A stretch of 51,455 nt of DNA from positions 1-51,455 of IMG/VR virus record IMGVR_UViG_3300032753_000042. One strand, written 5' to 3'. Position 1 is the stretch's first letter; every line of letters starts with the position of its first letter. Both the position numbers and the translations under genes were made by a program. The notes below the pieces were generated by a model. The model was not told the DNA's origin and searched no databases. It was given only the letters and a program-made list of their open reading frames with translations. The stretch comes from a virus. This document shows positions 3,656 to 51,166 of the stretch, piece after piece.

Positions 3656-4146
3656 TGACATACGAGTTATATATTGAAATAGACTCTAATGGTAATTGTA
3701 TCAATCATCCAATTTTAGGAGACAATCTATCTGATGCATTGGGTATTGATCTTAATAATTTACCTCCAAATTATGTACCTTTTATTCGAATACCACAACC
3801 ATCAACAGGAAATGTGTTTGTAGAAGCTGTTTGTTCTTATGGGCAAGTTAATGGGGCATATCAGGATATCTGGACTATGCAACCTATGTCCGATGATCAA
3901 ATATCAGCAATAAAAACACAAATAGATGAACAAGTTGCAACCATTATAGCTAATCGAGAACAAATTGCAAACACAGCATTATCGACTGCACAATTAAATG
4001 GCGATAGTAATGCAATTTCAGTTTGGACAGATTATATAAACACGTTATCATCTTTTACAATAACCGATTATAATAATATTTCCATTCCAAAATTGCCAAA
4101 ATTAAATGCCAATAGTAGTATTACTACTGGCAATGTAATTGTATAG
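3655..4146 (+). CDS. Small tail-associated protein, possibly fibre assembly
   Basis: 163 residues with no catalytic motif that I recognise. The layout resembles phage tail-fibre assembly or accessory proteins: a beta-rich N half (ELYIEIDSNGNCINHPIL, VPFIRIPQP), then a helical stretch (MSDDQISAIKTQIDEQVATI, IANREQIANTALS) and a short C-terminal part with KLPKLN. It starts on the A of the preceding stop (TAATG) and ends on two consecutive TAG codons. The role is inferred from position after two tail genes. Confidence 0.6.
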   Translation: MTYELYIEIDSNGNCINHPILGDNLSDALGIDLNNLPPNYVPFIRIPQPSTGNVFVEAVCSYGQVNGAYQDIWTMQPMSDDQISAIKTQIDEQVATIIANREQIANTALSTAQLNGDSNAISVWTDYINTLSSFTITDYNNISIPKLPKLNANSSITTGNVIV

Positions 4147-4158
4147 TAGGTCCTACTA
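4144..4158. repeat. Short inverted repeat between tail genes
   Basis: TAGTAGG-T-CCTACTA is a perfect 7-base inverted repeat that includes the double stop of the preceding gene. It could form a small hairpin. No T-tract follows, so it is not a classical terminator. Confidence 0.5.
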
Positions 4159-4169
4159 AGGAATATAAA

Positions 4170-4814
4170 ATGGAAAGCAATTTTACAGCAACTGGTTATT
4201 TTATCACATCTGTATACTCTGATTATAAACCAGAATTTCTGTCAACTGCATCTATAGTTTCAGATGAATATATAGACACAACAATTAAAAAATATCCAAC
4301 AGATGAAATGGATATACTTGTACAAACTGAAAATTTCAGTTTAGATTCTAGAGTATCAGACCTAACTGGATACATACAACAAACAAGTCAATTTATACTA
4401 GATGAGCAAGGATATGATCTATCTGGATTAAAGACCGATGTTTTTGAATTTTGGTGTCAGAAACACTTCAAATATTCTAGCCACGATGCTCATATGCATG
4501 GGTTTGGGTCAATGATTTCTGGATTTTATTTTATAGAATGCCCGGAAGATTCATGCAAGCTGGTAATTTATGATCCTAGACCAGCTAAAGAGTTTGGCAA
4601 TTTACCAGAGAAAGATATAAGAAATATTACCCTAGCATCTCAAGCTGTCAACTTTGGTCCTAAACCAGGAGATATATTTTTTATTAATTCTTGGTTAAGA
4701 CATTCATTTACTAGAAATAGAAGCAATGATGCATTTAAGATGATTCATTTCAATGTTGGTGTTGTGCCAGACAGTAATCAACAGAAAATGCAACTTTCAA
4801 CAATCGTTGTATAA
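4170..4814 (+). CDS. 2OG-Fe(II) oxygenase family protein
   Basis: 214 residues. The double-stranded beta-helix core is visible in the C half: HMHGFGSMISGFYFIECPE carries the first metal histidine region, KLVIYDPRP follows, and PGDIFFINSWLRHSFTRNRS supplies the distal histidine and a basic residue for 2-oxoglutarate. This is the pattern of the small phage 2OG-Fe(II) oxygenases commonly found near tail genes. The substrate is unknown and could be a protein side chain or a nucleobase. A start with AAGGAATATAAAATG gives a Shine-Dalgarno-like AAGGA. It lies at the end of the tail cluster, so a virion-protein hydroxylase is one reasonable guess. Confidence 0.72.
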   Translation: MESNFTATGYFITSVYSDYKPEFLSTASIVSDEYIDTTIKKYPTDEMDILVQTENFSLDSRVSDLTGYIQQTSQFILDEQGYDLSGLKTDVFEFWCQKHFKYSSHDAHMHGFGSMISGFYFIECPEDSCKLVIYDPRPAKEFGNLPEKDIRNITLASQAVNFGPKPGDIFFINSWLRHSFTRNRSNDAFKMIHFNVGVVPDSNQQKMQLSTIVV

Positions 4815-5193: not shown

Positions 5194-5583
5194 ATGACAA
5201 AACCTCAGAAGAAGACATTTGTATATACAACATTTCAAAAGGAAGCTTATCATCGATTTCCCGAGGCTGGTACAAATCCTCAATATGCAACTGGAGATGA
5301 ATACGACGTATCGCATCTTGCGTTAAGGCACATGCATTACTTCAACTTCAAAGTTTGGGTAGAAGTCACGCATGCTAACCGTCAAATTGAATTCATACAA
5401 CTTCGCAGGTGGATTGAGAGTCTTTATGCTAATAATATGCTAGAATTGGATCGTCAGAGCTGTGAGATGCTTAGTGACGCATTGTATGAGAAACTATCAG
5501 AAAGATATCCAAATATGGAAATTAGAATAGATATTAGCGAAGAAGGTATCAACGGAGCTTATACTGAATACAAACCATTGTAA
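5194..5583 (+). CDS. Divergent QueD/PTPS-fold protein (6-carboxytetrahydropterin synthase-like)
   Basis: 129 residues, about the usual QueD length. LRHMHYFNFKVWVEV resembles the HxH-x-F/Y-xVxV zinc strand of QueD/6-pyruvoyl-tetrahydropterin synthases. LDRQSCEMLSDALYEKLSERYP matches the helix between the two strands, and ISEEGINGAYTEY matches the C-terminal strand with the conserved Glu. The upstream zinc histidine and catalytic Cys are not clearly placed, so this is a divergent member. QueD turns dihydroneopterin triphosphate into 6-carboxytetrahydropterin. With FolE and QueE in the same locus this assignment makes pathway sense. The C terminus overlaps an antisense homing endonuclease by 25 bases. 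Function is inferred from pattern and context. Confidence 0.55.
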   Translation: MTKPQKKTFVYTTFQKEAYHRFPEAGTNPQYATGDEYDVSHLALRHMHYFNFKVWVEVTHANRQIEFIQLRRWIESLYANNMLELDRQSCEMLSDALYEKLSERYPNMEIRIDISEEGINGAYTEYKPL

Positions 5584-6047
5584 TCTTTAACTTTACACAG
5601 TTTTTTAAACTGCCAATAGTTTCTCAAATGAGGTTTGTAAGGATCAAGAGATACACCTATACCTTTATCCTTACAAAATTTTAATCTCTTACCTCGTATA
5701 ATGTACACTTCTCCTGTAGGAGAAATAGCTTCCCACACATATGCATTATAATTTTTATCACCAAACTGGTCTTTTTTTGGTTTATTTTTAATTTTTGCCA
5801 ATTGACGAGTTCTAGCTTCAACTAAACCTTCTTTTCTGATAGATTCTATCCATTCTTTTCCAAAATTATTAATTAACAAATGCCTTATTGTATACTGCGC
5901 ATGACCAGTTTTCTCAGATGTTCCTTTGATAGTTTTACATTCTTCAAATGCCTCTTTGATAGATTTAACATAGCTATCGTATGACTGATACCCAATTTTT
6001 GAAGCTATAGAATCAAGATGTTTGGCTTTCACCTCTGATTTAAACAT
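5559..6047 (-). CDS. C-terminal part of a homing endonuclease (separate frame)
   Basis: 162 residues starting MFKSEVKAKHLDSIASKIGY. The content is basic, with a helix-rich region (YDSYVKSIKEAFEE) and HAQYTIRHLLINNFGKEWIE, which looks like a DNA-binding helix-turn-helix. The end (VYIIRGKRLKFCKDKGI) resembles a NUMOD-like specificity module. It overlaps the upstream GIY-YIG frame by 19 bases in a different frame. It is therefore either the second half of one frameshifted endonuclease or a translationally coupled second protein. It runs antisense to the flanking phage genes. Confidence 0.6.
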   Translation of the reverse strand: MFKSEVKAKHLDSIASKIGYQSYDSYVKSIKEAFEECKTIKGTSEKTGHAQYTIRHLLINNFGKEWIESIRKEGLVEARTRQLAKIKNKPKKDQFGDKNYNAYVWEAISPTGEVYIIRGKRLKFCKDKGIGVSLDPYKPHLRNYWQFKKLCKVKDYNGLYSV

Positions 6048-6508
6048 ACTATTGTGTTCTTTAGAATATTTTTATTGAATTTTCTCATAGCCTCAATTCC
6101 GTCGTGCGAATGATAAGAACCATTGTACTTTTCAAATCTAAATTTAGTATGATTGGTAATACGGCTGCCTACTCTATGTTTTACATTATTTGAACAATTC
6201 AAAAACCTATGGTCTGTAATCATATTCATCCTACGCAATACCTTATTTTCATATTCTACAGCTTTTTCTTGAGCATTTGATACTGATCCGTAATGATCAG
6301 GATGGAATTCTTTTCTAATTTCAATCAATGTAGGTTCGCCGTACATCTTTCTATATTGTTTAACTAATACAGACGATGTAAAATAAGTTTTCCAAAAATT
6401 ATTTGGATCAGACCCAATGCCAAACTTAACTCCAAAATAATAACGATTTATTGATGGCCAACCTATCAAGTAACAATAAGGCACAGTGTTTTGGTTCTTA
6501 TGACTCAT
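6029..6508 (-). CDS. GIY-YIG-like homing endonuclease, N-terminal part
   Basis: 159 residues. The start reads YCYLIGWPSINRYYFGVKFG, a GIY-YIG variant in which YLIG and YYFGVKFG replace the canonical tripeptides. WKTYFTSSVLVKQYRKMYGEP follows, as in the phage family whose members read WxxYFTSS. A catalytic-region Glu lies in AQEKAVEYENKVLRR and an Asn in FLNCSNN. The frame ends in TGA just after a second frame opens, so the original protein may have been about 310 residues. CATAAATA lies five bases before the ATG on the coding strand. That matches a T4-type late promoter and would give a nearly leaderless mRNA. Confidence 0.75.
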   Translation of the reverse strand: MSHKNQNTVPYCYLIGWPSINRYYFGVKFGIGSDPNNFWKTYFTSSVLVKQYRKMYGEPTLIEIRKEFHPDHYGSVSNAQEKAVEYENKVLRRMNMITDHRFLNCSNNVKHRVGSRITNHTKFRFEKYNGSYHSHDGIEAMRKFNKNILKNTIVCLNQR

Positions 6509-6591: not shown

Positions 6592-7704
6592 ATGACGATT
6601 TATATTGTAGATTTGGAAAGCATTCCAACTAGATACACTTGCGAATGGAAGATATTTCTTTCTAAACAAATAAGAGACGTAGGGTTAGACGTTGAAGTTA
6701 TCAGTGGGCCAGACGACTTGCCTGATAACACAACTCCTGGAATGTTTTTGAATTTTTCCGCTACTAACATTTATAAATCAGTTCAAGTAGAAAAGTTCAG
6801 TAGGTTATTTTCAGAAGGTAGGATTAAAAACGGAGATTATTTTCTGTTTACCGATGCGTGGCATCCAGGCGTAATTAATCTAAAATATATGGCAGACCTC
6901 TTAGGTATTAAGATTAAAATTGGAGGACTTTGGCACGCCGGATCATATGATCCTCAAGATGGATTAGGTAGGCTAATAGGTGATGTGCCTTGGGTTCGCA
7001 ATGCAGAAGCCAGCATGTTCTATTGTTATGATGACAATTTCTTTGCTACTAGATTCCATTCAAATATGTTCTTCAAGAACTTGTTTGATGTACGCAATAT
7101 GTTTGATAATGACGAAACAGAAGCATGGATAAACGGTCATAAACCAAACGGTCCAACTGTACATATTGTTGGATGGCCTATGGAATATCTCAAAGATACT
7201 ATGGCACCATATGCCGATATCCCCAAGAAGAACAAGATCATCTTCCCACATCGCATAGCACCAGAGAAACAGATAGAAATCTTCAGAGATCTAGCTGTCG
7301 CAATGCCTGAATATGAATGGTTTGTAGCGCAGGATCAAACATTGACTAAGGATGAGTATCACACTCATATGGCAGAGAGCAAGCTAATGTTCAGTGCTAG
7401 CTTGCAAGAGACGTTGGGAATTGGTGCATATGAGGCGGCTCTAGTAGGAACAATGCCTATATTGCCAAACAGACTAAGCTATGCTGAAATGTGGAATCAA
7501 AATGTACTGTACCCAAGTAATTGGACCAAAAACTGGGAATCATACCTAAGTAACAAAACTCAACTGATAGAGTTCATTAAGAATATCATGGAAGAAAACA
7601 ACCAAGATACAATTCAAACAGCGCATATATTAGCTGATGAAACTGGTGATAGGTTCTTCAATGGCAAGGCATTGTATGAAGTTATAGCAAATCCAAAAGC
7701 TTGA
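6592..7704 (+). CDS. GT-B fold glycosyltransferase-like protein
   Basis: 370 residues. The second half has the features of a GT4-like domain: IIFPHRIAPEKQIEIFRDL matches the RxxPEK segment that contacts the nucleotide, and LQETLGIGAYEAALVGTMPI matches the E-x7-E donor-site motif. The N half is an alpha/beta domain with FLFTDAWHPGV and IGGLWHAGSYDP. The ATG at 6592 is preferred over 6580 because GGAG lies inside the longer version at the right distance. The gene abuts a DpdA-like gene, so it may glycosylate modified phage DNA or a modified base. A virion or host surface target is equally possible. Confidence 0.72.
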   Translation: MTIYIVDLESIPTRYTCEWKIFLSKQIRDVGLDVEVISGPDDLPDNTTPGMFLNFSATNIYKSVQVEKFSRLFSEGRIKNGDYFLFTDAWHPGVINLKYMADLLGIKIKIGGLWHAGSYDPQDGLGRLIGDVPWVRNAEASMFYCYDDNFFATRFHSNMFFKNLFDVRNMFDNDETEAWINGHKPNGPTVHIVGWPMEYLKDTMAPYADIPKKNKIIFPHRIAPEKQIEIFRDLAVAMPEYEWFVAQDQTLTKDEYHTHMAESKLMFSASLQETLGIGAYEAALVGTMPILPNRLSYAEMWNQNVLYPSNWTKNWESYLSNKTQLIEFIKNIMEENNQDTIQTAHILADETGDRFFNGKALYEVIANPKA

Positions 7705-7739
7705 TTGACACCCCAAACATAGGCGATCATAATTATATC

Positions 7740-9398
7740 ATGACAAATAATTTCAAACGATTCAGTTTCAACACTGACCATTTAGATATCAATCCTGAAG
7801 CACATAATCTTGCTGCCAAACAGAATGACTATGCATTGTTCTTACCGTCAATCAGCATGATTTATGCTAAGATTGTCAGCATGGTTGAATATAACATGCG
7901 TGACAAAATGCCATCAGGATTGCCAAATGGGCTAAAAGATCTAAACTTCTTAGATCCAGCTAACAGCCTGTTTTATTATCCAGTTGCGCTGTATTCAGCT
8001 GGACATGCTATTTTGGATCCAAAAGAAAGTTGGGTACAAGAAAGTATGGTACAACAACGAGATCGCAAGAACACTATAATGGTTGGCGACAGCGGCGGGT
8101 TTCAAGCAGCTACTGGTGTGCTAAAGTATCCTTGGCATCCTAAACCCAAGCAAACTCCAGAAGAGCACATGCGAGACAAGGACGATGTGCGATTGAAGCT
8201 GTTGCGATGGTTGGAAGCAACTGCTGATTACAGCATGGTTCTAGATTGGCCAACTTACGCACTTGTGAAGTATGGTCTTGATCCTGTTACTGGTGTTAGC
8301 TTGCATCCCAGTTTGAAGAGCTTCAAAGATTGTCTAGACGGAAGCATGGAGAATCACCAATTCTTCATCAAACATCGCAAGCCGGGTGCAACTAAATTCC
8401 TCAACGTTCTACAGGGCCGCAATCAAGAAGAAGGCGACATTTGGTGGGAAGCTGCCAAGGACTTACCATTTGAAAGTTGGGCATTCTCCAACGTGCAGGC
8501 TTCCAACTTCAGCATCAACTTGCGTCGCTTGATCATCATGCGAGACCAACATTACCTAGAAGGTCGTGAGTGGCTGCATTATCTCGGTAATGGTAAGATC
8601 AAAGCTGGGTGTGCATTAACAACAGTACAGCGGGCATTGCGCAAGTATGTTGATCCAGAACTAACTATAAGTTTTGATGCAGCAAGTCCGTTTGTTATGA
8701 CCGCCAAGGGGCAGGGGTATTATGGACATGAGCTAAGTTCAACTAACGTTGGCTTCAAAGGCGGTCCTATTGTTGATAAGAAAGAACTCAAAAATGATCC
8801 AACATTATTAAATGATTGGATGGCTGCTAATCTACCTAAAAAATGTGTACCTGTACGTAGCAAGATAGGTGATCGCGTAACTGTGGGAGATATCTGTGTC
8901 AGAGGCGAAGATGATTTAAAGTACAAGAAGGTGTCATTTACCAAAAAAGAAATTGACAGCGGCCAGTGGGCTGCGACCCCAGAAGGTAGAGCAGGCGATC
9001 CATTCAAGTGGAGCAAGGCATATAAAGATTATCTACTGCATCATCTAGAAAATGGAGGTGTCTTTGATTTTGGTAGCAACGTATTTTTAGATGAAAAAAA
9101 GAAGTACGAAGTCAAGTGGCCCAGCAGCATGGATGGATTTAGCTATCTATTGATGATGAACCACAATGTAGAGCTTCATATAAATGCTATTCAATCAGCT
9201 AATATGGCACAAGATATGCCAATAAGCGAGGCAAAGAAATTACTTACACCAGACTTATTGGAATTTAAAGATCTTTGTACAGATATTTTTACATCAGAAA
9301 AGCCGATGGATTTGATAATTCGGCATGAGAAGATGCTGCAACAGATTACTGGCATGGATGCTGACAATTCTGTTAGCATGGATATAGGGGATATTTGA
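7740..9398 (+). CDS. dpdA: DpdA-like 7-deazaguanine DNA transglycosylase
   Basis: 552 residues from the ATG at 7740; the frame can be extended to a TTG at 7701 that overlaps the upstream stop. The TIM-barrel tRNA-guanine transglycosylase pattern is clear: MVGDSGGFQ near residue 117 holds the catalytic Asp, YSMVLDWPTYAL follows, FLNVLQGRN gives the QG strand, and ISFDAASPF near residue 312 probably carries the nucleophilic Asp. The CxCxxC-H zinc site of canonical TGT was not found, as in phage DpdA proteins. These enzymes exchange guanine in DNA for a 7-deazaguanine. FolE, QueE and a QueD-like gene nearby strongly support DNA modification rather than tRNA queuosine. Confidence 0.85.
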   Translation: MTNNFKRFSFNTDHLDINPEAHNLAAKQNDYALFLPSISMIYAKIVSMVEYNMRDKMPSGLPNGLKDLNFLDPANSLFYYPVALYSAGHAILDPKESWVQESMVQQRDRKNTIMVGDSGGFQAATGVLKYPWHPKPKQTPEEHMRDKDDVRLKLLRWLEATADYSMVLDWPTYALVKYGLDPVTGVSLHPSLKSFKDCLDGSMENHQFFIKHRKPGATKFLNVLQGRNQEEGDIWWEAAKDLPFESWAFSNVQASNFSINLRRLIIMRDQHYLEGREWLHYLGNGKIKAGCALTTVQRALRKYVDPELTISFDAASPFVMTAKGQGYYGHELSSTNVGFKGGPIVDKKELKNDPTLLNDWMAANLPKKCVPVRSKIGDRVTVGDICVRGEDDLKYKKVSFTKKEIDSGQWAATPEGRAGDPFKWSKAYKDYLLHHLENGGVFDFGSNVFLDEKKKYEVKWPSSMDGFSYLLMMNHNVELHINAIQSANMAQDMPISEAKKLLTPDLLEFKDLCTDIFTSEKPMDLIIRHEKMLQQITGMDADNSVSMDIGDI

Positions 9399-10437: not shown

Positions 10438-11124
10438 ATGGAAATTTCAGAAAAGATCAAAGAGCGCATCAAGAACAGTGGTGCGCGATTTCACAGTAAT
10501 GACAATATTTCAGAATTTGTTAGCAAAGATGAACTTGATTTGCTGATAGACGAAGTACAGGGAAAGTTTCAGGGTGTGTTGGACAGCTTGGTGATAGATA
10601 CCGATAATGATCCAAACAGCCGAGATACTGCTAGGCGACTCGCCAAGATGTATATCAAGGAATTGATGAGCGGTAGATATAATCCCCCGCCAAATGCTAC
10701 GTCATTTCCTAATGATAGCGATGAGAGATACGAGGGCATGCTGGTAGTGAGGAGTGAATTAAAGAGCGTATGCAGCCACCATCATCAGCCAGTTACCGGA
10801 GTAGCATATATAGGTATCATAGCTGCTAGGAAGCTGATTGGTCTCAGCAAATACACTCGCATTGCTCAGTGGTGTAGCAGACGCGGTACATTACAGGAAG
10901 AATTATGCAATGATATTGCCAGGGAAATTCAAAAGGCCACAGGTAGTGAAGATGTGGGAGTTTACATACAGGCAGTGCATGGATGCTGTGAAAATAGGGG
11001 CATAATGGCACATAGCAGTCTTACACAAACTACAGTGCTTAAAGGTGCGTTTTATAATGATCTCGGAACAAAGAAGGAATTCTTTGATAATATCAAACTA
11101 CAGCAGGAATTTGCACCTCGATAA
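10438..11124 (+). CDS. folE: GTP cyclohydrolase I (FolE)
   Basis: 228 residues, the expected length. Hallmarks in order are RDTARRLAKMYIKELMSGRY, VRSELKSVCSHHHQPVTG with the zinc Cys and His, ARKLIGLSKYTRIAQWCSRR, LCNDIAREIQ, and HGCCENRGIMAHSSLTQT with the second zinc Cys and the substrate loop. The enzyme opens GTP to dihydroneopterin triphosphate, the first step of folate and of 7-deazaguanine synthesis. With queE and dpdA nearby the second role is more likely. CSHHHQPVTG differs from the bacterial CEHHLLPFxG, a variation typical of phage copies. The gene has its own promoter region. Confidence 0.93.
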   Translation: MEISEKIKERIKNSGARFHSNDNISEFVSKDELDLLIDEVQGKFQGVLDSLVIDTDNDPNSRDTARRLAKMYIKELMSGRYNPPPNATSFPNDSDERYEGMLVVRSELKSVCSHHHQPVTGVAYIGIIAARKLIGLSKYTRIAQWCSRRGTLQEELCNDIAREIQKATGSEDVGVYIQAVHGCCENRGIMAHSSLTQTTVLKGAFYNDLGTKKEFFDNIKLQQEFAPR

Positions 11125-13541: not shown

Positions 13542-14417
13542 ATGTTTGGTCGTAATTCAATTGTTGGTCAAAAGTATTTCAATGACGCAGGTGACAAGCT
13601 ATATGTAACCAGCATCTTTTACACTCTTCAAGGAGAAGGCCCATATAGGGGAGAACCTGCGGTGTTTGTGAGATTAGCTAAGTGCAATCTCGCTTGTAGC
13701 TTTTGCGATACTTATTTTGACGGTGGCGATTGGCTCACTATTAATGAGATAAACGATCGCATAAACAGTGCTATCGAAACACATTTTAATGGAGAAGTAC
13801 CACTATGGGCGCGGGAATTGTGGGGCAATGAAGCCTATCCTGTGCGACCTAGAGAAATGGTGCTCGTAGTAACTGGTGGAGAGCCAATGCTGCAGAGTAA
13901 TCTAGTACCTTTTCTAGAGTTTATGAATCTTCGATTTAGAAAGACCCAGATAGAAAGCAACGGTACAGTTTGGCAGGATATCCCTGCTGCAACTACTTTG
14001 GTTTGCAGCCCTAAATGCAGCGAGAAGAAAGGCAAGGCAATCAAGTACTTGCAACCAAATCAAGATGTTATGGAACGTGCAGATTGTTTGAAATTTGTAA
14101 TGAACGCAGACCCTAACAGTCCATACAGCAGCATACCCGATTGGGCACACGAATATGCTGCTAAAGGTAAAAAAGTATTCATCAGCCCAATGAACGTATA
14201 TAACAGAGAACCTCAGAAGAGTAAACAACTACGAAGCACTAAGAATGACATCTCTATTGAAGAGCGTAGCAATGTAGATGAGGTTATTAGTTTTTGGGAA
14301 GAAGGATTATTGAATATGTCTGAAAATCAAAAGAATCACGAATATGCTGCAAGGTATTGTGCTAGGCATGGGTTTACGTTAAATCTTCAGATACATTTGT
14401 ATGCAAGCCTAGCATAA
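13542..14417 (+). CDS. queE: 7-carboxy-7-deazaguanine synthase (QueE), radical SAM
   Basis: 291 residues. IFYTLQGEGPYRGEPAVFVR is the QueE signature before the cluster-binding motif CNLACSFCDTYF (CxxxCxxC). VVTGGEPMLQ is the GGE SAM-binding strand and IESNGTVW follows at the expected distance. The enzyme converts 6-carboxytetrahydropterin to 7-carboxy-7-deazaguanine. At 291 residues it is longer than most bacterial QueE, with extra sequence around VPLWARELWGNEAYPVRPRE and in the C half. Together with FolE, the QueD-like protein and DpdA it forms most of a base-modification route. Confidence 0.92.
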   Translation: MFGRNSIVGQKYFNDAGDKLYVTSIFYTLQGEGPYRGEPAVFVRLAKCNLACSFCDTYFDGGDWLTINEINDRINSAIETHFNGEVPLWARELWGNEAYPVRPREMVLVVTGGEPMLQSNLVPFLEFMNLRFRKTQIESNGTVWQDIPAATTLVCSPKCSEKKGKAIKYLQPNQDVMERADCLKFVMNADPNSPYSSIPDWAHEYAAKGKKVFISPMNVYNREPQKSKQLRSTKNDISIEERSNVDEVISFWEEGLLNMSENQKNHEYAARYCARHGFTLNLQIHLYASLA

Positions 14418-21637: not shown

Positions 21638-23329
21638 TTATAACAATTTTTCCCAGACAGCATTACCACAATCCCATATTCTATCCCACCCGTGATTGCG
21701 CATATTTTCCCATTCGCTTAAATTTGGATCAAAATTATCTAACTTTTTAACCAAATAGCGCTTTTGAAATCCGCTGCGATGATAGACCTTTCCCGCTTTT
21801 ACATACCAATAGCCCGGACCTGTATTTTTTACATGACTAAATCCTGCTAAGCCATATGATAAACCCGGCCCCCATCTTAGATCAGAATAAGTTATTATCT
21901 TTTTTCCAAAATGATCAAGACCAACAGCGTTGATCAATTTACTTACACCCCCTGGTATTACTATGCCGCAACGAGTGCTTGATCTAATTATTTCTAGGTC
22001 TGCTGTCTTGTCATATCTAGAATGACCTATGCTCATGCACATATAAATTACACCATCTTGAGATGCCAATGCATAATGCTGGTTAGCAGGTGCTGCACCT
22101 GAGAGATGATTTTGGTTATGAAAAGTAGCCGCTTGATCGTTGGAAATCTTTGTAACAACCAATTTCCTAGCACCGATCCTATTGCTGTTGACGCCTAATA
22201 GATTGTCTAACCTACTCTTAACAATGTCCAACTTATCTGCAATTTCAGTGTCCCAGATGTGTACCAATCGTATGCCAAGTTCAGCACACTTGCGAGTTTT
22301 TTCCAAATGGTAGTCATATGGCTTATTCCCTCCTAGTTCGCCGTGCCAATAAACGCCATCTATCTCAATAGCCAAATTTAACTCAGGTAACACAATATCC
22401 AATTCCATTCCATTCAAGACTTTGCGATCATTTATACATATTTCTCCGTAGTATTTGCTACGTAAATGATCTAATATAAATTGGTGATGAGAACTGATAG
22501 CATGCTGCACAGGAACGAGACCAAGTTTGTTGAATCTGACACTTAATTGGCTGGTTCCCATCCCCAATTTCTTAGCAATATAACACAACGGATATTGCGC
22601 ATTTTGTTCTTGTAACCATTGACGATTGTAACTAAGATCAATCATGTCCATACTCATATGCAATTGAGCAGGATCATATCTACCATATCTATCCAAATTG
22701 GTACGGTAACGGCGATCTAATATTTCTTGCAATCTCTCTGCATATGCTGTACGGGTGTTTTCTGTAGTTTTGGCAACTATCTCAGGTACATGCATAGGAT
22801 TAGCAACACCATATCTATCCAACAGGGTTTTTTTGATTTTGTCTTGAACGTCGGGCACACTCAATGTGCTTCGATGTCCATATAATGATAAATTAGTAGA
22901 TTCTATCTTGGCCCTAACAATTGGACTAGCTGATGGAACTTCTACACCATACTTCGATAAACTGGTTGCTCGAGCCTTGCGATGATAATCATCAGTTTGA
23001 AAATATGACCTGTTTCCGTAAATGCGCTCGGTACTGCTAGCTTTTTTCTGTTTGGTATTCGAGTCTCTTGCTGCACAAGCTTTGCTGCAAAATCGTCTAT
23101 AACAACCGTCTGTTCGGTCAAATTGAGTTGGAGAACCGCAGTTTTCACAAGACGGGATGTAAAATACCCTGTTGCGTAAATGCCATATTCTTACGTAAGT
23201 GGGAGTATTACATGGTAAAAATGTAGTTAGATCCAAAAGCTCCGTTGGGCACCATTTTGATAACGCTTTGGTATTTTTAGTGTTTTTCAATTGATCATAT
23301 TGCTCAAGTAATTTGTCTATAATATCCAT
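21638..23329 (-). CDS. Homing endonuclease, Zn-finger plus Vsr-like nuclease
   Basis: 563 residues from the ATG at 23329, which follows GAGGTAAATGT; longer reading to 23449 would cover the opposite promoter. The N-terminal part has a treble-clef zinc finger (PSCENCGSPTQF, FCSKACAA). Then come several YG repeat segments (SLYGHRSTLSVPDVQDKIKK, LLDRYGVANPM), and a Vsr/PD-(D/E)xK core: LNGMELDIVLPELNLAIEID, GVYWHGELGG, KTRKCAELGIRLVHIWDTEI. A C-terminal domain of about 190 residues is probably the specificity module. This family is common as free-standing homing endonucleases in phages. It runs divergently from the MoxR gene. Confidence 0.85.
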   Translation of the reverse strand: MDIIDKLLEQYDQLKNTKNTKALSKWCPTELLDLTTFLPCNTPTYVRIWHLRNRVFYIPSCENCGSPTQFDRTDGCYRRFCSKACAARDSNTKQKKASSTERIYGNRSYFQTDDYHRKARATSLSKYGVEVPSASPIVRAKIESTNLSLYGHRSTLSVPDVQDKIKKTLLDRYGVANPMHVPEIVAKTTENTRTAYAERLQEILDRRYRTNLDRYGRYDPAQLHMSMDMIDLSYNRQWLQEQNAQYPLCYIAKKLGMGTSQLSVRFNKLGLVPVQHAISSHHQFILDHLRSKYYGEICINDRKVLNGMELDIVLPELNLAIEIDGVYWHGELGGNKPYDYHLEKTRKCAELGIRLVHIWDTEIADKLDIVKSRLDNLLGVNSNRIGARKLVVTKISNDQAATFHNQNHLSGAAPANQHYALASQDGVIYMCMSIGHSRYDKTADLEIIRSSTRCGIVIPGGVSKLINAVGLDHFGKKIITYSDLRWGPGLSYGLAGFSHVKNTGPGYWYVKAGKVYHRSGFQKRYLVKKLDNFDPNLSEWENMRNHGWDRIWDCGNAVWEKLL

Positions 23330-23378
23330 ACATTTACCTCTTTTATCATTATATCTAATTTTTCCGCAAAATAACAGG

Positions 23379-23406
23379 TTGACAGTAAAGTTATAGGTGC
23401 TATTAT
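23379..23406 (+). promoter_or_regulatory. Extended -10 promoter for the MoxR gene
   Basis: TTGACA at 23379-23384, 16-base spacer ending in TGC, and TATTAT at 23401-23406. AGGAG precedes the ATG at 23450. Confidence 0.75.
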
Positions 23407-23449
23407 CACATCGTAACGACACAAACGTTAACTTAGGAGAAACACACAA

Positions 23450-29662: not shown

Positions 29663-30352
29663 TTACCTTTTCATTTTATTTGCTAATTGAGTTGCAACTT
29701 TTCTAGCATATATTTCTGCTCGTTTTTCTGGAGTATATGCAAGTCTCTTTGCAACCCTTTTAGCAATAATTTCTTCTTTTTCTTTTTGCGATTTATTTTT
29801 CCAAGATATACTTTTCTCAATACTGGCTTTGTTCTTTTTATCAGCTGACATTTTAGACCATGTTTCTCGTCTTTTAGTTTTTTCTTCTTCGGTTTGAATT
29901 TTAATAGGCACTGTTGCTCTTGCTCTAGACATTTTTTCTTTTGTCTCTGGAGATCTTTTCAAACCTTTTAATGATTTAGATATTTTCTTTCTAACATCGT
30001 CTGGTGTTTTATCGTTAGCTCTTGAAAATATATGTTTGCCAAATACAGGATCTCTATAATGTTTATTGATACATAATGGATCTGTTATATGTTCTTTAAT
30101 CAATTGTTGTTCTATTTTATAACATTCTTTATAATCGTCATTGATTGCTATAACCTCAACAATAAAAGATTCTATACCGTATTGTGCGATTATGTTATGT
30201 ATTTCTTTAGAAGACGTGAAATAACGAACCCATAAATCATCTGCTATAGTTCTATTATATTTGTCATGTCTCATTCGATAACCAAAGTAATAAACCTCAG
30301 TAACTTTATGTGTTACTTTGTAAACATAAGGTGATATTAAATGTAAATACAT
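29663..30352 (-). CDS. GIY-YIG homing endonuclease with NUMOD-type tail
   Basis: 229 residues. The N domain has YVYKVTHKVTEVYYFGYRMR (the GIY and YIG strands), WVRYFTSSKEIHNIIAQYGI, and EVIAINDDYKECYKIEQQLI with the conserved Glu. The C half has ISKSLKGLKRSPETKEKMSR, a NUMOD3-like DNA-binding repeat, and Lys/Arg-rich helices. It lies antisense between the amber-interrupted gene and the AAA ATPase. A late-type promoter and a hairpin leader precede it. Confidence 0.88.
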   Translation of the reverse strand: MYLHLISPYVYKVTHKVTEVYYFGYRMRHDKYNRTIADDLWVRYFTSSKEIHNIIAQYGIESFIVEVIAINDDYKECYKIEQQLIKEHITDPLCINKHYRDPVFGKHIFSRANDKTPDDVRKKISKSLKGLKRSPETKEKMSRARATVPIKIQTEEEKTKRRETWSKMSADKKNKASIEKSISWKNKSQKEKEEIIAKRVAKRLAYTPEKRAEIYARKVATQLANKMKR

Positions 30353-30380
30353 TTGCTGATTGCTCCTACAAAGCGTTAGA

Positions 30381-30425
30381 GTAGTTGGGGATCGCGAGTC
30401 CCGTGAACTACATTACTTATTTATC
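30381..30425 (-). promoter_or_regulatory. Late-type promoter and leader hairpin of the GIY-YIG gene
   Basis: On the reverse strand GATAAATA (30418-30425) is followed after 6 bases by a hairpin: GTAGTT pairs with AACTAC (30381-30411) and, inside, GGGA pairs with TCCC. A ribosome-binding site AGGAGCA follows the hairpin, ahead of the ATG. The same element, with different paired bases, stands before the other GIY-YIG gene at 36549. Confidence 0.7.
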
Positions 30426-35166: not shown

Positions 35167-35194
35167 TTGACAACACTTGTATAGATGTTATTGT
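35167..35194 (+). promoter_or_regulatory. Extended -10 promoter for the RNA ligase N part
   Basis: TTGACA at 35167-35172, 16-base spacer ending in TGT, and TATTGT at 35189-35194. ACGAGAGG precedes the ATG at 35220. Confidence 0.62.
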
Positions 35195-35219: not shown

Positions 35220-35816
35220 ATGCACTATAAGTTTCCGGAAATTCGGCATTTGGATGACGTGCGCCCTGCGATTGAGGGTCGCGATGAATTTGTGGTTGCA
35301 GAACGCGGCCGATTTACCATTGTTTGTTATGTAGTAGCAATGAGTGACACGTTTCCGCCAGTGGTAACTGTTAACGATGCAATTCGACGAGAATGTCGAG
35401 GTATTATCTTTGATAGCGCAACAGGAAGAATATTGCGTAGACCTCTTGCCAAGTGGTTCAACATCTTTGAGAAAGAAGAGACTCAACTTGATAAGTTAGA
35501 TTTTTCGCTGCCACATAAGGTTTATACCAAATATGACGGCTCTATGATTTCGCCTTTTGAAGACGGGTACAGATCTGGTGTCATAAGGTGGGGTACAAAA
35601 ATGGGCATTTCAGAAGTTGCACTTCAAGCTGAAGCTTTTGTAAAAAACCATCCGCAATATCAAAATTTCGCTAAATGGTGTATTTCAAATGATCTTACAC
35701 CAATATTCGAGTACACTGCACCTAATAATAGGATTGTTCTATCTTATGATAAGCCCATGTTGACATTGTTAACAGTGCGTCATATGGTAACAGGCGAACA
35801 TTTTAATCTGCTTTGA
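35220..35816 (+). CDS. RNA ligase 1-like protein, N-terminal part of a split gene
   Basis: 198 residues. RECRGIIFDSATGRILRRPL and KWFNIFEKEE precede KVYTKYDGSMISPF, in which the Lys of KYDGS is the nucleotidyl-accepting residue (motif I). LTPIFEYTAPNNRIVLSYDK carries motif III/IIIa. The protein stops after LLTVRHMVTGEHFNLL. Motifs IV and V are missing, but they are encoded at 36675 on the same strand. A GIY-YIG gene on the other strand lies between the two halves, and its 3' end overlaps this stop by 14 bases. The intact relative is T4 Rnl1, which joins broken tRNA and other RNA ends. Confidence 0.85.
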   Translation: MHYKFPEIRHLDDVRPAIEGRDEFVVAERGRFTIVCYVVAMSDTFPPVVTVNDAIRRECRGIIFDSATGRILRRPLAKWFNIFEKEETQLDKLDFSLPHKVYTKYDGSMISPFEDGYRSGVIRWGTKMGISEVALQAEAFVKNHPQYQNFAKWCISNDLTPIFEYTAPNNRIVLSYDKPMLTLLTVRHMVTGEHFNLL

Positions 35817-36549
35817 ATTTGCAATTATTCCCGTGCCACCGGGAATAATTGCCACTTTTAAACAAATTATTACAATATTGGCATAAAAATTTTGGCGCAG
35901 TTGATTTAGTTTTAGATATTTTCATTCGTTGGTCATAATTCATTAGACCACACTTATATCCTTTTTTAGATTTAGATATATTAGATCTGTGTGTATCTGA
36001 TATTGGACCTTTTTTAATTCCTGTAGTTGATTGGGATATTTTCTTTTTTGTTTCTTCACTATGCGGAATCGAGTGTTTATTTTTATTAGAAAGGGATATT
36101 TTCTTTTTTGTTTCTTCGTTTCGTGGTCCTAATAATTTTCCTTTTTTAAGTTTTGATATTTTTTGTCTAGTTTCGTCTGAATGTCTATAATGCTTCCTAC
36201 TCTTATTAAGTTTTTCTTGATGTTCTGATGTTCTATTTTTAGCATATAATGATAATTTATGTTTTGTAGTGTCGCTTCTTATGAACCCTCCCGGACCTTC
36301 TCCGCCGTTAGATAAATTACGTAATATTCCTGTTCCTATATCTTTGCAACCAAATAGTTTAATATATGCCTGTTCCAATTTAAATGCATCATCTTCGAGT
36401 AATCCAGTTTGATAGAATATAATTTTAGATTTATCTTTTGGTACAGGTACCGAATGTTTACCATAAATTCGTTTTCCTTTACCTTTTCCTATGTAATAAG
36501 GAGTGTTGTCTGTTTGTCGTAAATATGCGTAAACATAGTAAATATGCAT
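35803..36549 (-). CDS. GIY-YIG homing endonuclease inside the split RNA ligase
   Basis: 248 residues. YYVYAYLRQTDNTPYYIGKG is the canonical GIY-YIG pair. LEQAYIKLFG holds the Glu and LRNLSNGGEGPGG the Asn. Four or five NUMOD3-type repeats with HSEETKKKISQ patterns form the DNA-binding tail, which ends in a zinc finger (CQYCNNLFKSGNYSRWH). It sits antisense in the gap between the two ligase halves, which fits homing insertion into a conserved gene. It has the same leader element as the GIY-YIG gene at 30352. Confidence 0.92.
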   Translation of the reverse strand: MHIYYVYAYLRQTDNTPYYIGKGKGKRIYGKHSVPVPKDKSKIIFYQTGLLEDDAFKLEQAYIKLFGCKDIGTGILRNLSNGGEGPGGFIRSDTTKHKLSLYAKNRTSEHQEKLNKSRKHYRHSDETRQKISKLKKGKLLGPRNEETKKKISLSNKNKHSIPHSEETKKKISQSTTGIKKGPISDTHRSNISKSKKGYKCGLMNYDQRMKISKTKSTAPKFLCQYCNNLFKSGNYSRWHGNNCKFKAD

Positions 36550-36575
36550 GCTGTATGCTCCTTCAAAGCTATAGA

Positions 36576-36617
36576 GTAGTTGGGAACGCTAATTCCGCGA
36601 ACTACGCTTTATTTATT
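36576..36617 (-). promoter_or_regulatory. Late-type promoter and leader hairpin of the GIY-YIG gene
   Basis: On the reverse strand AATAAATA (36610-36617) is followed after 4 bases by a hairpin with GTAGTT/AACTAC outside and GGAA/TTCC inside. The copy at 30381-30411 has GGGA/TCCC at the inner stem, so both sides have changed together. The AGGAGCA ribosome-binding site comes next. Confidence 0.72.
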
Positions 36618-36626
36618 AAATTTTGA

Positions 36627-36654
36627 TTGACTAATCTTAGTATGATGCTAGAGT
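36627..36654 (+). promoter_or_regulatory. Extended -10 promoter for the RNA ligase C part
   Basis: TTGACT at 36627-36632, 16-base spacer ending in TGATGC, and TAGAGT at 36649-36654. ATAGGAGATAGCA precedes the ATG at 36675. The second ligase half thus has complete expression signals of its own. Confidence 0.72.
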
Positions 36655-36674
36655 ATGCATTATAGGAGATAGCA

Positions 36675-37280
36675 ATGACTCTTCAAATTCAACTTTTGGA
36701 CAAGATTAATTTATATAATATTCCTGTTGCAAAGGTTCATGATTCAGTTAAAGACCCTGTTGAGTTTATTAACTATGTTAGAGGTCTCAAGAATGTAGAA
36801 GGATTTGTTATCGCATGGGATTCTGGTTATCGAGTTAAGACCAAAGCTGACGAGTATCTACGTTTTCATAAAACTAAAGATGGACTGTCACAAGAAAAAA
36901 ATGTGATTGACCTGTTGGTAAACGATAAGGTTGATGACGCAAAGTCCTACATGATGGACGATGACCGACACCGTGTTGAACAGTTTGAAGACCAGTTCTG
37001 GCATGGCTTCAACTACACCGTTGATCAGCTTGAGCAGGATCTCAAGCGGGCGCTGTCTGTGACCCGCGGTGACCGCAAGACGTTTGCTCTAGGCATGGGC
37101 AAGGACATGCAGCCTATTGCTCGTCAGGTTATGTTCTCCTGCTGGGATGGAGCACGCGATGTGCGCACCGAGCTGCTCAGCGTGATCAAGAAGAACATTG
37201 GTACTGCAACCAAGGTTGACGGTGTACGCCATCTTTGGGGTGGTCATCGGTGGAGCTACCACTTTGAAGGAGATGCATGA
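36675..37280 (+). CDS. RNA ligase 1-like protein, C-terminal part of a split gene
   Basis: 201 residues. NVEGFVIAWDSGYRVKTKAD is motif IV and the start of motif V, and EYLRFHKTKDGLSQEKNVID continues as in T4 Rnl1-type ligases. The C-terminal helical region (HRVEQFEDQFWHGFNYTVDQ) matches the specificity domain. Together with the part at 35220 the length is about 399 residues, near that of T4 Rnl1 (374). This half has its own promoter, ribosome-binding site and ATG, so a two-subunit ligase is possible. The last third is richer in GC than the N part. Confidence 0.83.
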   Translation: MTLQIQLLDKINLYNIPVAKVHDSVKDPVEFINYVRGLKNVEGFVIAWDSGYRVKTKADEYLRFHKTKDGLSQEKNVIDLLVNDKVDDAKSYMMDDDRHRVEQFEDQFWHGFNYTVDQLEQDLKRALSVTRGDRKTFALGMGKDMQPIARQVMFSCWDGARDVRTELLSVIKKNIGTATKVDGVRHLWGGHRWSYHFEGDA

Positions 37281-45797: not shown

Positions 45798-46820
45798 ATG
45801 GCACAGTTATTAACCAGAGACCAATTTCGCGAAGGTGTCTTTGCGCGCGACAGTCACAAGTGCGTGTTCTGTAAAAATCCTGCTGTGGATGCTCATCACA
45901 TACTAGAACGCAGACTTTGGACTGACGGAGGATATTATCTAGAAAACGGTGCCAGTGTATGCTAGCAACATCACCTCGAATGTGAAATGACTACAATATC
46001 TGTAGAGGCTGTGAGAGAAGCTTGTGGTATACGCAAGAAGGTTATACCAGAACACCTCTATGAGGATGTAGTTTATGACAAATGGGGCAACGTAATACTC
46101 CCAAATGGTCAACGCATGAAAGGCGAACTGTTTGGCGATGCTAGCGTACAGAAAATATTGTCACAGGGAGGTGTACTAGACCAATTTGTAAAATACTACA
46201 AATATCCTCGAACCTATCATTTACCTTGGTCGCCTGGCGTAAATGATGACGATAAAGTCATACACGATGTTGCTGTATTTGACAATTGTGAGATAGTGGT
46301 TACTGAAAAGATGGACGGCGAAAACTGTACCATGTATTTGGATTATATACATGCTCGCAGCATTGATGGACGCAATCATTAGAGTCGAGATTGGGTTAAA
46401 AATTTCCACAGCAAGATACAGCATGACATACCCGAAGGCTATAGAATCTGCGGAGAAAACCTATATGCCAAACACAGTATTGCATACAATGAACTTGGTA
46501 GCTACTTTTACGGATTTAGCATGTGGAATGAAGATACCTGCTTGAGTTGGGACGAAACTTTGGAATGGTTTGACCTAATTGGCATACAGCATGTGAATGT
46601 CCTATATAGAGGTATGTTCGATGAGAAGTTAGTTCGCAACCTACAGAAATCATTAGATTTTTCTAAGCAAGAAGGCTATGTTTTACGCAAGGTTGGATCA
46701 TTTAAGATGAATCAATTTAAGAACAGTGTTGGTAAGTTTGTGAGGAAGGATCATGTTCAGACCAAACAGCATTGGATGTATGACAGGATAGAACAGAATC
46801 GTATTAGGACCTTGACATGA
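45798..46820 (+). CDS. HNH-like plus RNA ligase fusion with two in-frame TAG codons
   Basis: 341 codons in one frame from the ATG at 45798, with TAG at codon 56 (45963-45965) and codon 195 (46380-46382). The first 65 residues are a zinc/HNH-like domain (CVFCKNPAVDAHHILERRLW, ENGASVC, then HHLECEMTT). The ligase core follows: VVTEKMDGENCTMY with the nucleotidyl Lys (motif I), HARSIDGRNH and SRDWVKNFH (motif Ia region), RICGENLYAKHSIAY (motif III), EGYVLRK (motif IV) and KFVRKDH (motif V). Sequence homology runs through both TAG sites without a gap. The TAGs fall at positions where related proteins vary, so Gln or another residue would be tolerated. It could be read through, suppressed or inactivated. 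Confidence 0.85.
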
Positions 46821-49317: not shown

Positions 49318-50208
49318 ATGATCTTGGACAACCTATACAAGCAGAAGCTAATCCATCCTCCCAAGTGGCTTCTAGCCAACACGATTTATCTTGCACGAGT
49401 AGGTAGTGAAAGCTACGGTGCAAAAATTGATAGCAGCGATGTAGATATTCAAGGTATTTGCATTCCAAAAAAAGATGATATTTTCCCCCATTTGCGAGGA
49501 GAAATTTTAGGATTTGGCACGCAGAAACAGAGATTTGATGTTTGGCAAGAACATCATATCGAAGATGTTTCTAACTCTAAAGAGTACGATTTTTCGGTAT
49601 ATTCTATTATTAAATTTTTCCAGCTTGCAATGGAAAATAATCCTAATATCTTGGATGTTATTTCGGTGCCAACTAATTGTATTGTTCATGCATCTGCAAT
49701 TGGTCAAATGATTCGAGATAATCGTAAGGTTTTCTATCATGCAGGATGTTTTCATAAGTTTAGGGGCTACGCATTTTCACAATTTTCTAAATTAGAAACA
49801 GGAGCAAATAAAAGCAATCCAAAACGGGCAGAAAATATTGCAAAATTTGGTTATGATACCAAATTTTTAATGCATGTTGTTAGATTGGCTCTGGAGTGCG
49901 AACAATTATTGTTAACAGGTGAACTTGTTCTTAACAAAGATAGTCAAACTTTACTCAGAATTCGCCGAGGTGAATGGTCTTTGGATGAAGGTAAGAAATG
50001 GTGGACTGCTAAAGAGCGTGACTTAGAATCTTTGTACGCAAATTGCAAAATTCTGCCGCACGTTCCCAACGAACCTGCTATTAAACAATTGTTGTTAGAT
50101 TGTTTAGAGCACCATTTTGGCTCATTAAGCTCTGCTATTAAATTACCAACAAAGGACGAACAATTGCTAAATGATCTTAAAAATCTCGTAGAAAAATATT
50201 CTCAGTAA
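49318..50208 (+). CDS. RlaP-type nucleotidyltransferase (RNA repair-associated)
   Basis: 296 residues. IYLARVGSESYGAKIDSSDV and DIQGICIP form the GSxxYG...SDxD signature of the polymerase-beta-like family (PF10127, RlaP). RlaP proteins are commonly linked to RNA-repair gene sets. The C half is helical (DTKFLMHVVRLALECEQLLL). It has a strong ribosome-binding site and its 3' end overlaps an antisense homing endonuclease by 32 bases. The target is probably RNA ends or tRNA but has not been shown. Confidence 0.82.
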   Translation: MILDNLYKQKLIHPPKWLLANTIYLARVGSESYGAKIDSSDVDIQGICIPKKDDIFPHLRGEILGFGTQKQRFDVWQEHHIEDVSNSKEYDFSVYSIIKFFQLAMENNPNILDVISVPTNCIVHASAIGQMIRDNRKVFYHAGCFHKFRGYAFSQFSKLETGANKSNPKRAENIAKFGYDTKFLMHVVRLALECEQLLLTGELVLNKDSQTLLRIRRGEWSLDEGKKWWTAKERDLESLYANCKILPHVPNEPAIKQLLLDCLEHHFGSLSSAIKLPTKDEQLLNDLKNLVEKYSQ

Positions 50209-51166
50209 GACCTGTTCTTTCCCAATAGACTAATATCTCTTTGGGATTAAATTGTCTTATGTGATTGAGTTTTAATTTATCTAATTCAAACTGTTGTAAT
50301 TTGGTAAATTTATTAGACTTATAGGGTGTAGCAGGTTCATACTCAACGCCTAAAATTTCTTCATTTGTATAGTGCCATGGACCGTTATACTCCAATACCA
50401 AATCAATTTTGGTTAAATCTTTATCAATCACAGCATCTTTTGTAGAAAAAACTATCAAGTCATAACTAAAATATTTCATTTTATTTAAAAACGGAACATA
50501 AATCATTTGCCAAAATTCATTTTTGTCAGTTGTTTTAAAGTATGCGAGATTTGTATCAATATTCCTTTTTTGTAACAATGAAATGATATATTCTTGTGCA
50601 GATCTAGAACTATATGCGCCTAGCACCCCTGGGTTTGAAGTCCCATATTTGAGTAAGCAAGTTGATTTCTTTTGATTTATAGTTTTTGGATTATTGGCTG
50701 CTGTTTTAAGTTTCAATTTCCAGTCATCATTTAATTTAAGTCCGAGCCTACTTTGACTGAGTTTTTTGGATCTTTCTTGTCTTGATTCTTCTGACAGGAA
50801 CTTGCTAGGTGTATTATATCTTGCATTGCAACTATATGAGCAAAATGAACGAAATCCGGTAGTAAATTTATCAAATTTGGTAATTTGTTTATTGCATTGT
50901 TTACAAAAAACATTTCCCAATTGCTTATTATATACTCTATAAATTCTTTCTACTAACGTAATATTGGGTAGGTGAGAAGTAATATATTTAATAGATTGAT
51001 ATAATGGTATCAAATTATGGTTATCTATATAACATTGTCTTGTGTAAATTGGTGATAAACTTTTACCATTTTTTGTAATTAAATGATCTCTAATTAAATC
51101 TACACATTTATCAATATCATATACCTGTTTTGATTCAATATTTTCTGTGTGGTCAATCTTTTTCAT
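50177..51166 (-). CDS. Homing endonuclease, zinc finger plus Vsr-type nuclease
   Basis: 329 residues. The order matches the protein at 23329: a zinc finger (VFCKQCNKQITKFDKFTT, FCSYSCNARY), a YG segment (LLKYGTSNPGVLGAYSS), then a PD-(D/E)xK-like core with KIDLVLEYNGPWHY and a Leu-rich end (KLNHIRQFNPKEILVYWE). It lies antisense, with a late-type ACTAAATA site upstream (51205-51212, 6 of 8). Confidence 0.72.
   Translation of the reverse strand: MKKIDHTENIESKQVYDIDKCVDLIRDHLITKNGKSLSPIYTRQCYIDNHNLIPLYQSIKYITSHLPNITLVERIYRVYNKQLGNVFCKQCNKQITKFDKFTTGFRSFCSYSCNARYNTPSKFLSEESRQERSKKLSQSRLGLKLNDDWKLKLKTAANNPKTINQKKSTCLLKYGTSNPGVLGAYSSRSAQEYIISLLQKRNIDTNLAYFKTTDKNEFWQMIYVPFLNKMKYFSYDLIVFSTKDAVIDKDLTKIDLVLEYNGPWHYTNEEILGVEYEPATPYKSNKFTKLQQFELDKLKLNHIRQFNPKEILVYWERTGLTENIFLRDF

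Follow-up and report, generated by a model that had tools for sequence, protein, structure and literature searches.

The 51,455-base virus record IMGVR_UViG_3300032753_000042 of IMG/VR, which we refer to in its entirety as the window, contains a T4 RNA ligase 1 (Rnl1) gene in two pieces, with an antisense homing endonuclease gene (HEG) splitting it at 35816/36675. The same break recurs in other viral ligases, in which the catalytic residues are retained wherever they were compared and the segment around the break, the core, is mosaic relative to its flanks. We assign a probability of roughly 0.75 to the interpretation that this is a two-chain RNA ligase 1, split once by a HEG cassette, whose core moved between ligase backgrounds and whose HEG was later lost in some phages. 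Judged from sequence comparisons, the HEG-split ligase is real and probably functional.

The N half matches Pfam RNA_lig_T4_1 (PF09511; E 3.2e-21) over profile positions 1–150 of 227, and the C half matches T4_Rnl1_C (PF20819; E 4.3e-7, above the family cut-off), the C-terminal helical domain specific to Rnl1. Both match phrog_562, annotated as ‘RNA ligase and tail fiber protein attachment catalyst’, the N half over positions 26–193 and the C half over 201–368 of 377. Because these stretches adjoin, no conserved ligase block is missing. A profile of the ligase relatives recovers T4 Rnl1 (PDB 2c5u, 9do4, 5tt6; E near 4e-44), and places the break after GEYI, which corresponds to a position near residue 190 of T4 Rnl1 and separates motif IIIa from motif IV. 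The N half terminates in GEHFNLL and the C half begins with MTLQ; the HEG and the N half overlap at their 3' ends by 14 nt, and about 125 nt separate the HEG start from the C-half start.

An earlier reading of the sequence, hereafter the original prediction, had assigned the nucleotidyl lysine and motifs I to IIIa to the N part and motifs IV and V to the C part, with the split lying between conserved blocks. The Pfam and PHROG matches, the adjoining phrog_562 stretches and the presence of Lys104 in the N half bear this out. The C part was also correctly described as having its own start signals, with an AGGAG ribosome-binding site, an ATG and an extended -10 promoter that is present as a consensus match.

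The gene between the halves had been described as an antisense GIY-YIG homing gene. Its orientation and homing assignment stand, since the protein matches NUMOD3 and the PHROG homing endonuclease families. Pfam GIY-YIG (PF01541) is unreached by this protein in the Pfam search, and the GIY-YIG class therefore rests on PHROGs and relatives. The HEG of L010 (L-numbers denote the viral contig loci compared) reaches PF01541 with E 0.0026, below the cut-off. The HEG of L010 is related to that of L031 along most of the protein (279 alignment columns, 29% identity, E 2e-30). The window HEG resembles that of L010 in its N-terminal 89 residues only (43% identity) and has no significant match to that of L031. 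Because the L010 and L031 genes are alike and the window gene is largely different, the resident HEG at the split may have been exchanged and need not be the one that made the break.

Recurrence of the break and history of the core

A first screen yielded 88 loci encoding relatives of both ligase parts, several of them the same or near-identical contigs. Both parts lie in one frame at 82 of these, which include L251, a close intact relative of L010, and L043, which has an early stop in its C part. Uninterrupted relatives therefore exist. The parts lie in two frames at the remaining six, and four of those (L010, L030, L031, L032) carry the window-type break. A second screen added 21 loci, three being repeats of L010, L031 and L032. 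Ten encode the ligase in one frame, L253/L254 are split and L252 is split on a contig that ends before the C half; for L243–L245 and L249 the queries used found no C match, and L247 is truncated. In all, the break just after the motif GEY[LF] is found in four viral lineages besides the window: L010, L031/L032, L030 and L253/L254.

An antisense HEG separates the halves in L010 and L031, and the splits in L032, L030 and L253 are HEG-free. The L032 junction consists of the N stop, 10 nt and the ATG of the C half. In L030 the C-half ATG overlaps the N stop, with a single change of frame, and L253 has a 380-nt gap (4110–4490) with no HEG-like open reading frame (ORF). In L252, a same-sense non-HEG gene (3501–4698) follows the N half at the break, and by eye the L253 gap seems to contain a decayed remnant of it.

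The other two two-frame loci, L077 (1856–4525) and L094, have a different, intein-type break. In these, a split intein interrupts Rnl1 within motif I. Its two halves, which match PF14890 with E 1.3e-4 and 4.8e-4, both below the cut-off, flank an antisense DUF7487 nuclease gene.

In a tree of whole ligases (59 rows, with 82 intact rows collapsed to 54), the five split rows fall in three places, requiring three changes, and a single clade is rejected (AU p 1.1e-5). We initially read this as three independent splits. We abandoned that reading once identities by block, and trees built separately for core and flanks, showed the ligases to be mosaics. Against intact L251, identity of L010 along the N half is 91% (N1–45), 73% (N46–85), 28% (N86–120), 35% (N121–160) and 44% (N161–196), and along the C half 11% (C3–40), 71% (C41–75), 91% (C76–120), 90% (C121–160) and 74% (C161–201). 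Overall the flanks of this pair are 87% and the core 30% identical, a 57-point gap that exceeds those of all 172 intact pairs with flank identity of at least 60%. L031 and L032 are 97% identical in the core and 72% in the flanks.

For the core and flank trees, L043, L027 and L028 were dropped as incomplete and eight intact rows and L253 were added. The core tree (N86–196 and C3–45, 65 rows) joins the six split rows in one group (85/94; 88% of 200 bootstrap trees), a grouping for which none of 500 shuffles gave as low a value. The flank tree (N1–45 and C76–201) scatters the same rows over six places (six changes), rejects one clade of the window, L010, L031 and L032 (AU p 7e-130) and pairs L010 with L251 at 100/100. 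A tree of the outer C half allows the window with L010 (AU p 0.09), so that the C ends of these two could have a common origin or could have diverged too far for a decision. When junction columns are excluded (N86–185 only, 64 rows, L246 dropped), the cores of the window, L010, L031 and L032 still group at 99/99, where the fourth member may be L030 replacing one of these, and a pairing of L010 with L251 is rejected (AU p 0.0007). These trees give good support to one split core shared by four or more ligases of differing background, and less to one shared by all six. Because the split rows group in the core and scatter in the flanks, the split core probably arose once and then moved by recombination.

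The alternative that has to be weighed here is that the gene broke several times at one weak spot of the fold and that the split cores are alike by convergence. This would account for the three changes and the rejected clade in the full-length tree, for the uncertain membership of L030 and L253 in the core clade and for the different, non-HEG insert at the break site of L252/L253. It does not account for the L010–L251 mosaic, which lies beyond every intact pair, for the excess of core over flank identity in L031/L032 or for the 99/99 grouping of four cores that persists without the junction. We consider repeated independent breaks unlikely.

Retention of function and weighing of alternatives

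The residues expected for catalysis are retained in all five split ligases for which they were compared (window, L010, L030, L031 and L032). These are Lys104, Asp106 and Gly107 of motif I (KxDG) and Glu164 of motif III in the N half, and Glu42 and Gly43 of motif IV and Lys55 and Lys57 of motif V in the C half. By its own terms, the original prediction would have been refuted had relatives that share the split lost catalytic residues, and no such loss was found. It had also held that neither half is decayed, and both are indeed open with their catalytic residues kept. At 83 columns that are at least 90% conserved among intact ligases, the identical residue is found at 69 in L010, 76 in L031, 79 in L032 and 81 in L030.

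Selection could be measured for L031–L032, the sole pair close enough, and both halves are under purifying selection (N half: dN/dS 0.110, dS 0.342; C half: dN/dS 0.366, dS 0.395). The halves of the window and L010 are 57% and 40% identical and still open. AlphaFold models of the N and C halves are confident (pLDDT 92.3 and 90.0). T4 Rnl1 is the best PDB match of the N-half model (E 2.7e-10, TM 0.76 of query) and provides the three best, weak matches of the C-half model (E 2.7e-3). The proposal that the halves still work together is supported by these comparisons. Since the split outlives the HEG, as seen in HEG-free splits, retained residues and purifying selection, a working two-chain enzyme is favored, and we infer that the chains assemble into an active ligase.

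A broken gene could also be dead or dying, with halves that persist only for lack of time. The window copy, which departs from 16 of the 83 conserved columns, would fit such a course; phages can carry decaying genes, and a second ligase in the window has an in-frame stop. We find this explanation improbable given the open halves, the catalytic residues kept in five split ligases, dN/dS values of 0.11 and 0.37, the openness of the window and L010 halves at their level of divergence and the persistence of three HEG-free splits.

Rejoining of the halves by splicing, through a group I intron or a split intein at the break, has a precedent in the split intein and antisense nuclease gene of L077/L094. 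For the window break we reject it on the grounds of Rfam, Pfam and the layout, and give it very little credence: the window has no Rfam match at gathering thresholds, neither half contains an intein family in Pfam, the overlapping stops and the short stretch between the HEG and C-half starts leave too little room for a group I core, and the C half is equipped with a ribosome site and a start of its own. An assembly artefact from chimeric contigs is the least credible explanation, as the break and the HEG–ligase order recur, with different sequence, on independent contigs from different samples and matching regulatory signals lie at the boundaries, even though all split copies are metagenomic contigs and L030 could reflect one indel.

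The interpretation we prefer is therefore a two-chain RNA ligase 1 with the following history. The N chain would bring the nucleotide-binding core with the adenylated lysine, and the C chain the helical domain together with the final two motifs of the core. The two would be made as separate polypeptides and pair, unspliced, to form one active ligase. A single insertion of a homing endonuclease cassette between motifs IIIa and IV probably caused the break. This cassette would end the N message via a hairpin and supply the C half with a promoter, a ribosome site and a start codon. Recombination around the site would then have carried the broken core into several ligase backgrounds, sometimes together with the endonuclease gene and sometimes without it, and the endonuclease gene would later have been lost in some phages, where the two-gene ligase stayed.

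Several observations weigh against this interpretation. The window halves stray from the conserved columns more often than those of any other split ligase (67 of 83 kept), the match of the C-half model to T4 Rnl1 reaches a TM of 0.45 only, and the C-half promoters are consensus matches. The L030 split consists of a single frame change that could be an assembly error. In the junction-free core tree, a clade of all six split rows is not rejected (AU p 0.44) but appears in only 16% of bootstrap trees, and the places of L030 and L253 are uncertain. Core and flanks also disagree among intact ligases: L003/L004 are 92% identical in the flanks and 45% in the core, a 48-point gap near that of L010–L251, and L004/L085 are 40% identical in the flanks and 99% in the core. 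Intact L004 is in effect a combination of L003-like flanks (92%) and an L085-like core (99%). Because intact ligases exchange cores as well, core exchange needs no HEG, and homing as the mover of the split core is plausible, not proven. The mosaics are at most compatible with a HEG that cuts HEG-less alleles and copies itself.

Expression signals and the leader of the endonuclease genes

Features at the break are listed in Table 1. Hairpins unrelated in sequence to the perfect hairpin after the N stop are found at the matching place in L010 (z -4.7) and L031 (z -4.3). All three HEG-bearing splits (window, L010, L031) have a promoter-like site between the HEG start and the C-half start: that of L010, at 3947, reads TTGATT-16-TATTAT with an extended -10 (TG), and that of L031, at 1892, reads TTGACT-17-TATAAT and matches 11 of 12 consensus positions. 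The window contains 12 promoter-like sites where 7.9 are expected (expected backgrounds were 7.9 and 9.0 in two larger scans and 1.1 in a small one), so that its C-half site is weak evidence by itself. The start codon of the C half is an ATG preceded by a ribosome site in the window and in L031, and a TTG in L010.

Table 1. Features of the split ligase locus and endonuclease leaders in the window
Feature	Position	Strand	Description
Rnl1 N half	35220-35816	+	198 aa; N-terminal region and nucleotidyltransferase motifs I-IIIa; stop TGA
Homing endonuclease gene	35803-36549	-	248 aa; NUMOD3 motifs; GIY-YIG type by PHROG and relatives
Rnl1 C half	36675-37280	+	201 aa; motifs IV and V, helical T4_Rnl1_C domain; own ATG
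Promoter-like site of N half	35167-35194	+	TTGACA-16-TATTGT, TG before second hexamer; consensus match only
Perfect 13-bp hairpin	35821-35852	.	Directly after N stop; possible (bidirectional) terminator; z -5.6
Promoter-like site of C half	36627-36654	+	TTGACT-16-TAGAGT, extended -10 (TG); consensus match
Ribosome-binding site of C half	36664-36668	+	AGGAG; read from sequence
HEG 5' leader	36532-36618	-	Match to covariance model R1, in R1 training set; ATAAATA box, hairpin 1, hairpin 2, start
Leader hairpin 1	36576-36605	-	GTAGTT/AACTAC and GGAA/TTCC
Leader hairpin 2	36554-36571	-	Around HEG ribosome-binding site; covariation over 115 leaders
Variant leader	30337-30425	-	Before HEG at 29663-30352

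The HEG is preceded by a 5' leader composed of an ATAAATA box and two hairpins, the second enclosing the ribosome-binding site. Hairpin 1 was matched by none of 100 shuffles, and no second copy within three mismatches is present in the window. An exact-pattern scan retrieved at least 120 viral stretches, and the leader is present in more than 100 viral contigs (including L010, L031, L220 and L100–L234) and in one cultured Rhizobium phage. Under the rule of the script used, an ORF of at least 60 aa directly follows 107 of 115 distinct leaders. In overlapping counts, the 106 distinct downstream proteins match NUMOD3 (31), HNH (18), HNH_5 (18), HNH_3 (8), SegE_GIY-YIG (8), GIY-YIG (8) and DUF7487 (1) in Pfam, and 54 match PHROG homing endonuclease 314. 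The leader thus precedes GIY-YIG and HNH nucleases alike. Among ten loci found via the HEG protein alone, four have the leader (L012, L013, L015, L018). The G004 record, which holds the HEG-free L032, has leader copies at 147440–147528 and 69808–69894, one about 4 kb from the ligase.

Of 94 distinct leaders, 77 have the ATAAATA box 12 nt upstream of the hairpin and four have it 11 nt upstream. A scan that required both bases of helix-1 pair 5 to differ from T-A gave 14 stretches, and the two bases are complementary in all 14 (eight G-C and six A-T), some of which are near-copies. In helix 2, 405 of 575 cells are paired, compared with 317 (sd 5.6) for shuffled partners; the corresponding values for 34 dereplicated leaders are 132 of 170 and 90 (sd 4.5). 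TATTTA follows CAGC by 5 nt in 87 of 98 leaders, and the start codon lies 5, 4 or 3 nt before TATTTA and thus occurs in all three frames. Because the start floats in this way, the conservation is that of nucleotides and not of protein. The minimum free energy of four individually folded leaders is unremarkable (z -0.5 to -1.8), and the case for the hairpins therefore rests on covariation.

The window leader has no match among cultured phages. One of the other leader queries gave one convincing match, in Rhizobium phage RHph_I1_18 (MN988519, near 80288), where the leader precedes an unannotated gene with a GIY-YIG-like start by eye and no Pfam match; two further queries gave nothing convincing. 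Bacterial and archaeal genomes contain no exact match. Rfam 15 has no family for the leader, and a search of 36480–36700 up to E 10 gave two chance-like matches only. Two wider patterns were discarded. Divergent flanking genes are a weak rule for leader loci (55 of 87, with 32 in the same direction), and a T4-type late promoter is not supported as a general feature of this phage: the window holds nine copies of ATAAATA where about 20 are expected, with none before the first tail-fibre-like genes, and the box is striking only by its place in the HEG leader. By analogy with hairpins described for T4-type HEGs in passages of PMC2988022 and PMC3014915, the leader may time or limit HEG translation.

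The phage is rich in homing-type genes. On the minus strand, besides those above, are a SegE-like nuclease in two overlapping ORFs (5559–6508), with ATAAATA 12 nt before its start and no full leader, a DUF7487/Vsr-like nuclease gene (21638–23449) and a further HEG-like ORF with no Pfam match (50177–51166). The second ligase of the window (45987–46820, plus strand) is Rnl2-like (PF09414, below the cut-off) and has a single in-frame TAG at 46380–46382, for which nonsense, suppression or sequencing error are candidates. TGT-like, FolE-like and QueE-like genes, named by eye (7701–9398, 10438–11124 and 13542–14417), suggest a deazaguanine pathway.

Comparison with known split enzymes

The intein-type breaks of L077/L094 fit the layout of fractured genes with split inteins and a Vsr-like homing endonuclease that was reportedly described by Dassa in 2009. 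The window break differs in having no intein and lying at another site.

Enzymes split by HEGs are known. In passages of PMC10448857, at least one such enzyme is noted and HEGs are viewed as edges of genetic exchange. One is NrdA of Aeromonas phage Aeh1, whose gene is split by mobE and which passages of PMC2988022 report as active in two chains. The nrdA gene resembles the window locus in having a HEG in a functionally critical part of an enzyme gene. The enzyme and the nuclease are different: the window has an RNA ligase with an antisense GIY-YIG/NUMOD3 gene, and its two-chain activity is what we infer. HEG-free relatives and core mosaics, seen here, go beyond the Aeh1 case. The same passages describe Aeromonas phage 25 gene 43 with seg43, active as two chains, T4 gene 60/39 with mobA, and gene 43 (DNA polymerase) of 44RR, which is split without a HEG and in this resembles L032. 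These are other enzymes, belonging to T4-like phages, and the passages cited from the review give no sign of a split core moving between backgrounds. The open-access literature searched, including passages of PMC5587285 and PMC3322345 and with subscription papers outside the search, holds no report of a HEG-split RNA ligase.

The leader also has counterparts. Hairpins at the ribosome site, with a late-type promoter, are described gene by gene in passages of PMC2988022 for T4-type HEGs (I-TevI, I-TevII, I-TevIII, segB, Aeh1 mobE and seg43 of phage 25), and the mobE hairpin sequesters the ribosome-binding site. Here, one conserved leader stands before both GIY-YIG and HNH nucleases, with the start in three frames; no shared HEG leader is reported in the open-access literature searched, subscription papers again lying outside. 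It is a candidate RNA family, and may be a single regulatory RNA through which homing endonucleases that differ in fold are all expressed.

HEG-split enzymes such as Aeh1 NrdA being known, what is new here is the same break in more lineages and its persistence without the HEG. Less ordinary are a split core that persists without the HEG and probably moves between ligase backgrounds, and HEGs of unrelated fold that share one covarying leader. We are evenly divided on the broader proposal that the two-subunit RNA ligase 1 is a stable form travelling as a recombining core independently of the selfish gene, with HEGs swapping behind a shared leader cassette of promoter box, two hairpins and start-site frame. 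HEG-split enzymes have so far been single curiosities, and the same break can here be followed in states with a HEG, without one and with a mosaic core. What becomes of a gene that a selfish element has broken can thereby be tested in an enzyme family with a solved reference structure, T4 Rnl1, and the natural split point of RNA ligase 1 provides a practical lead for a two-part ligase.

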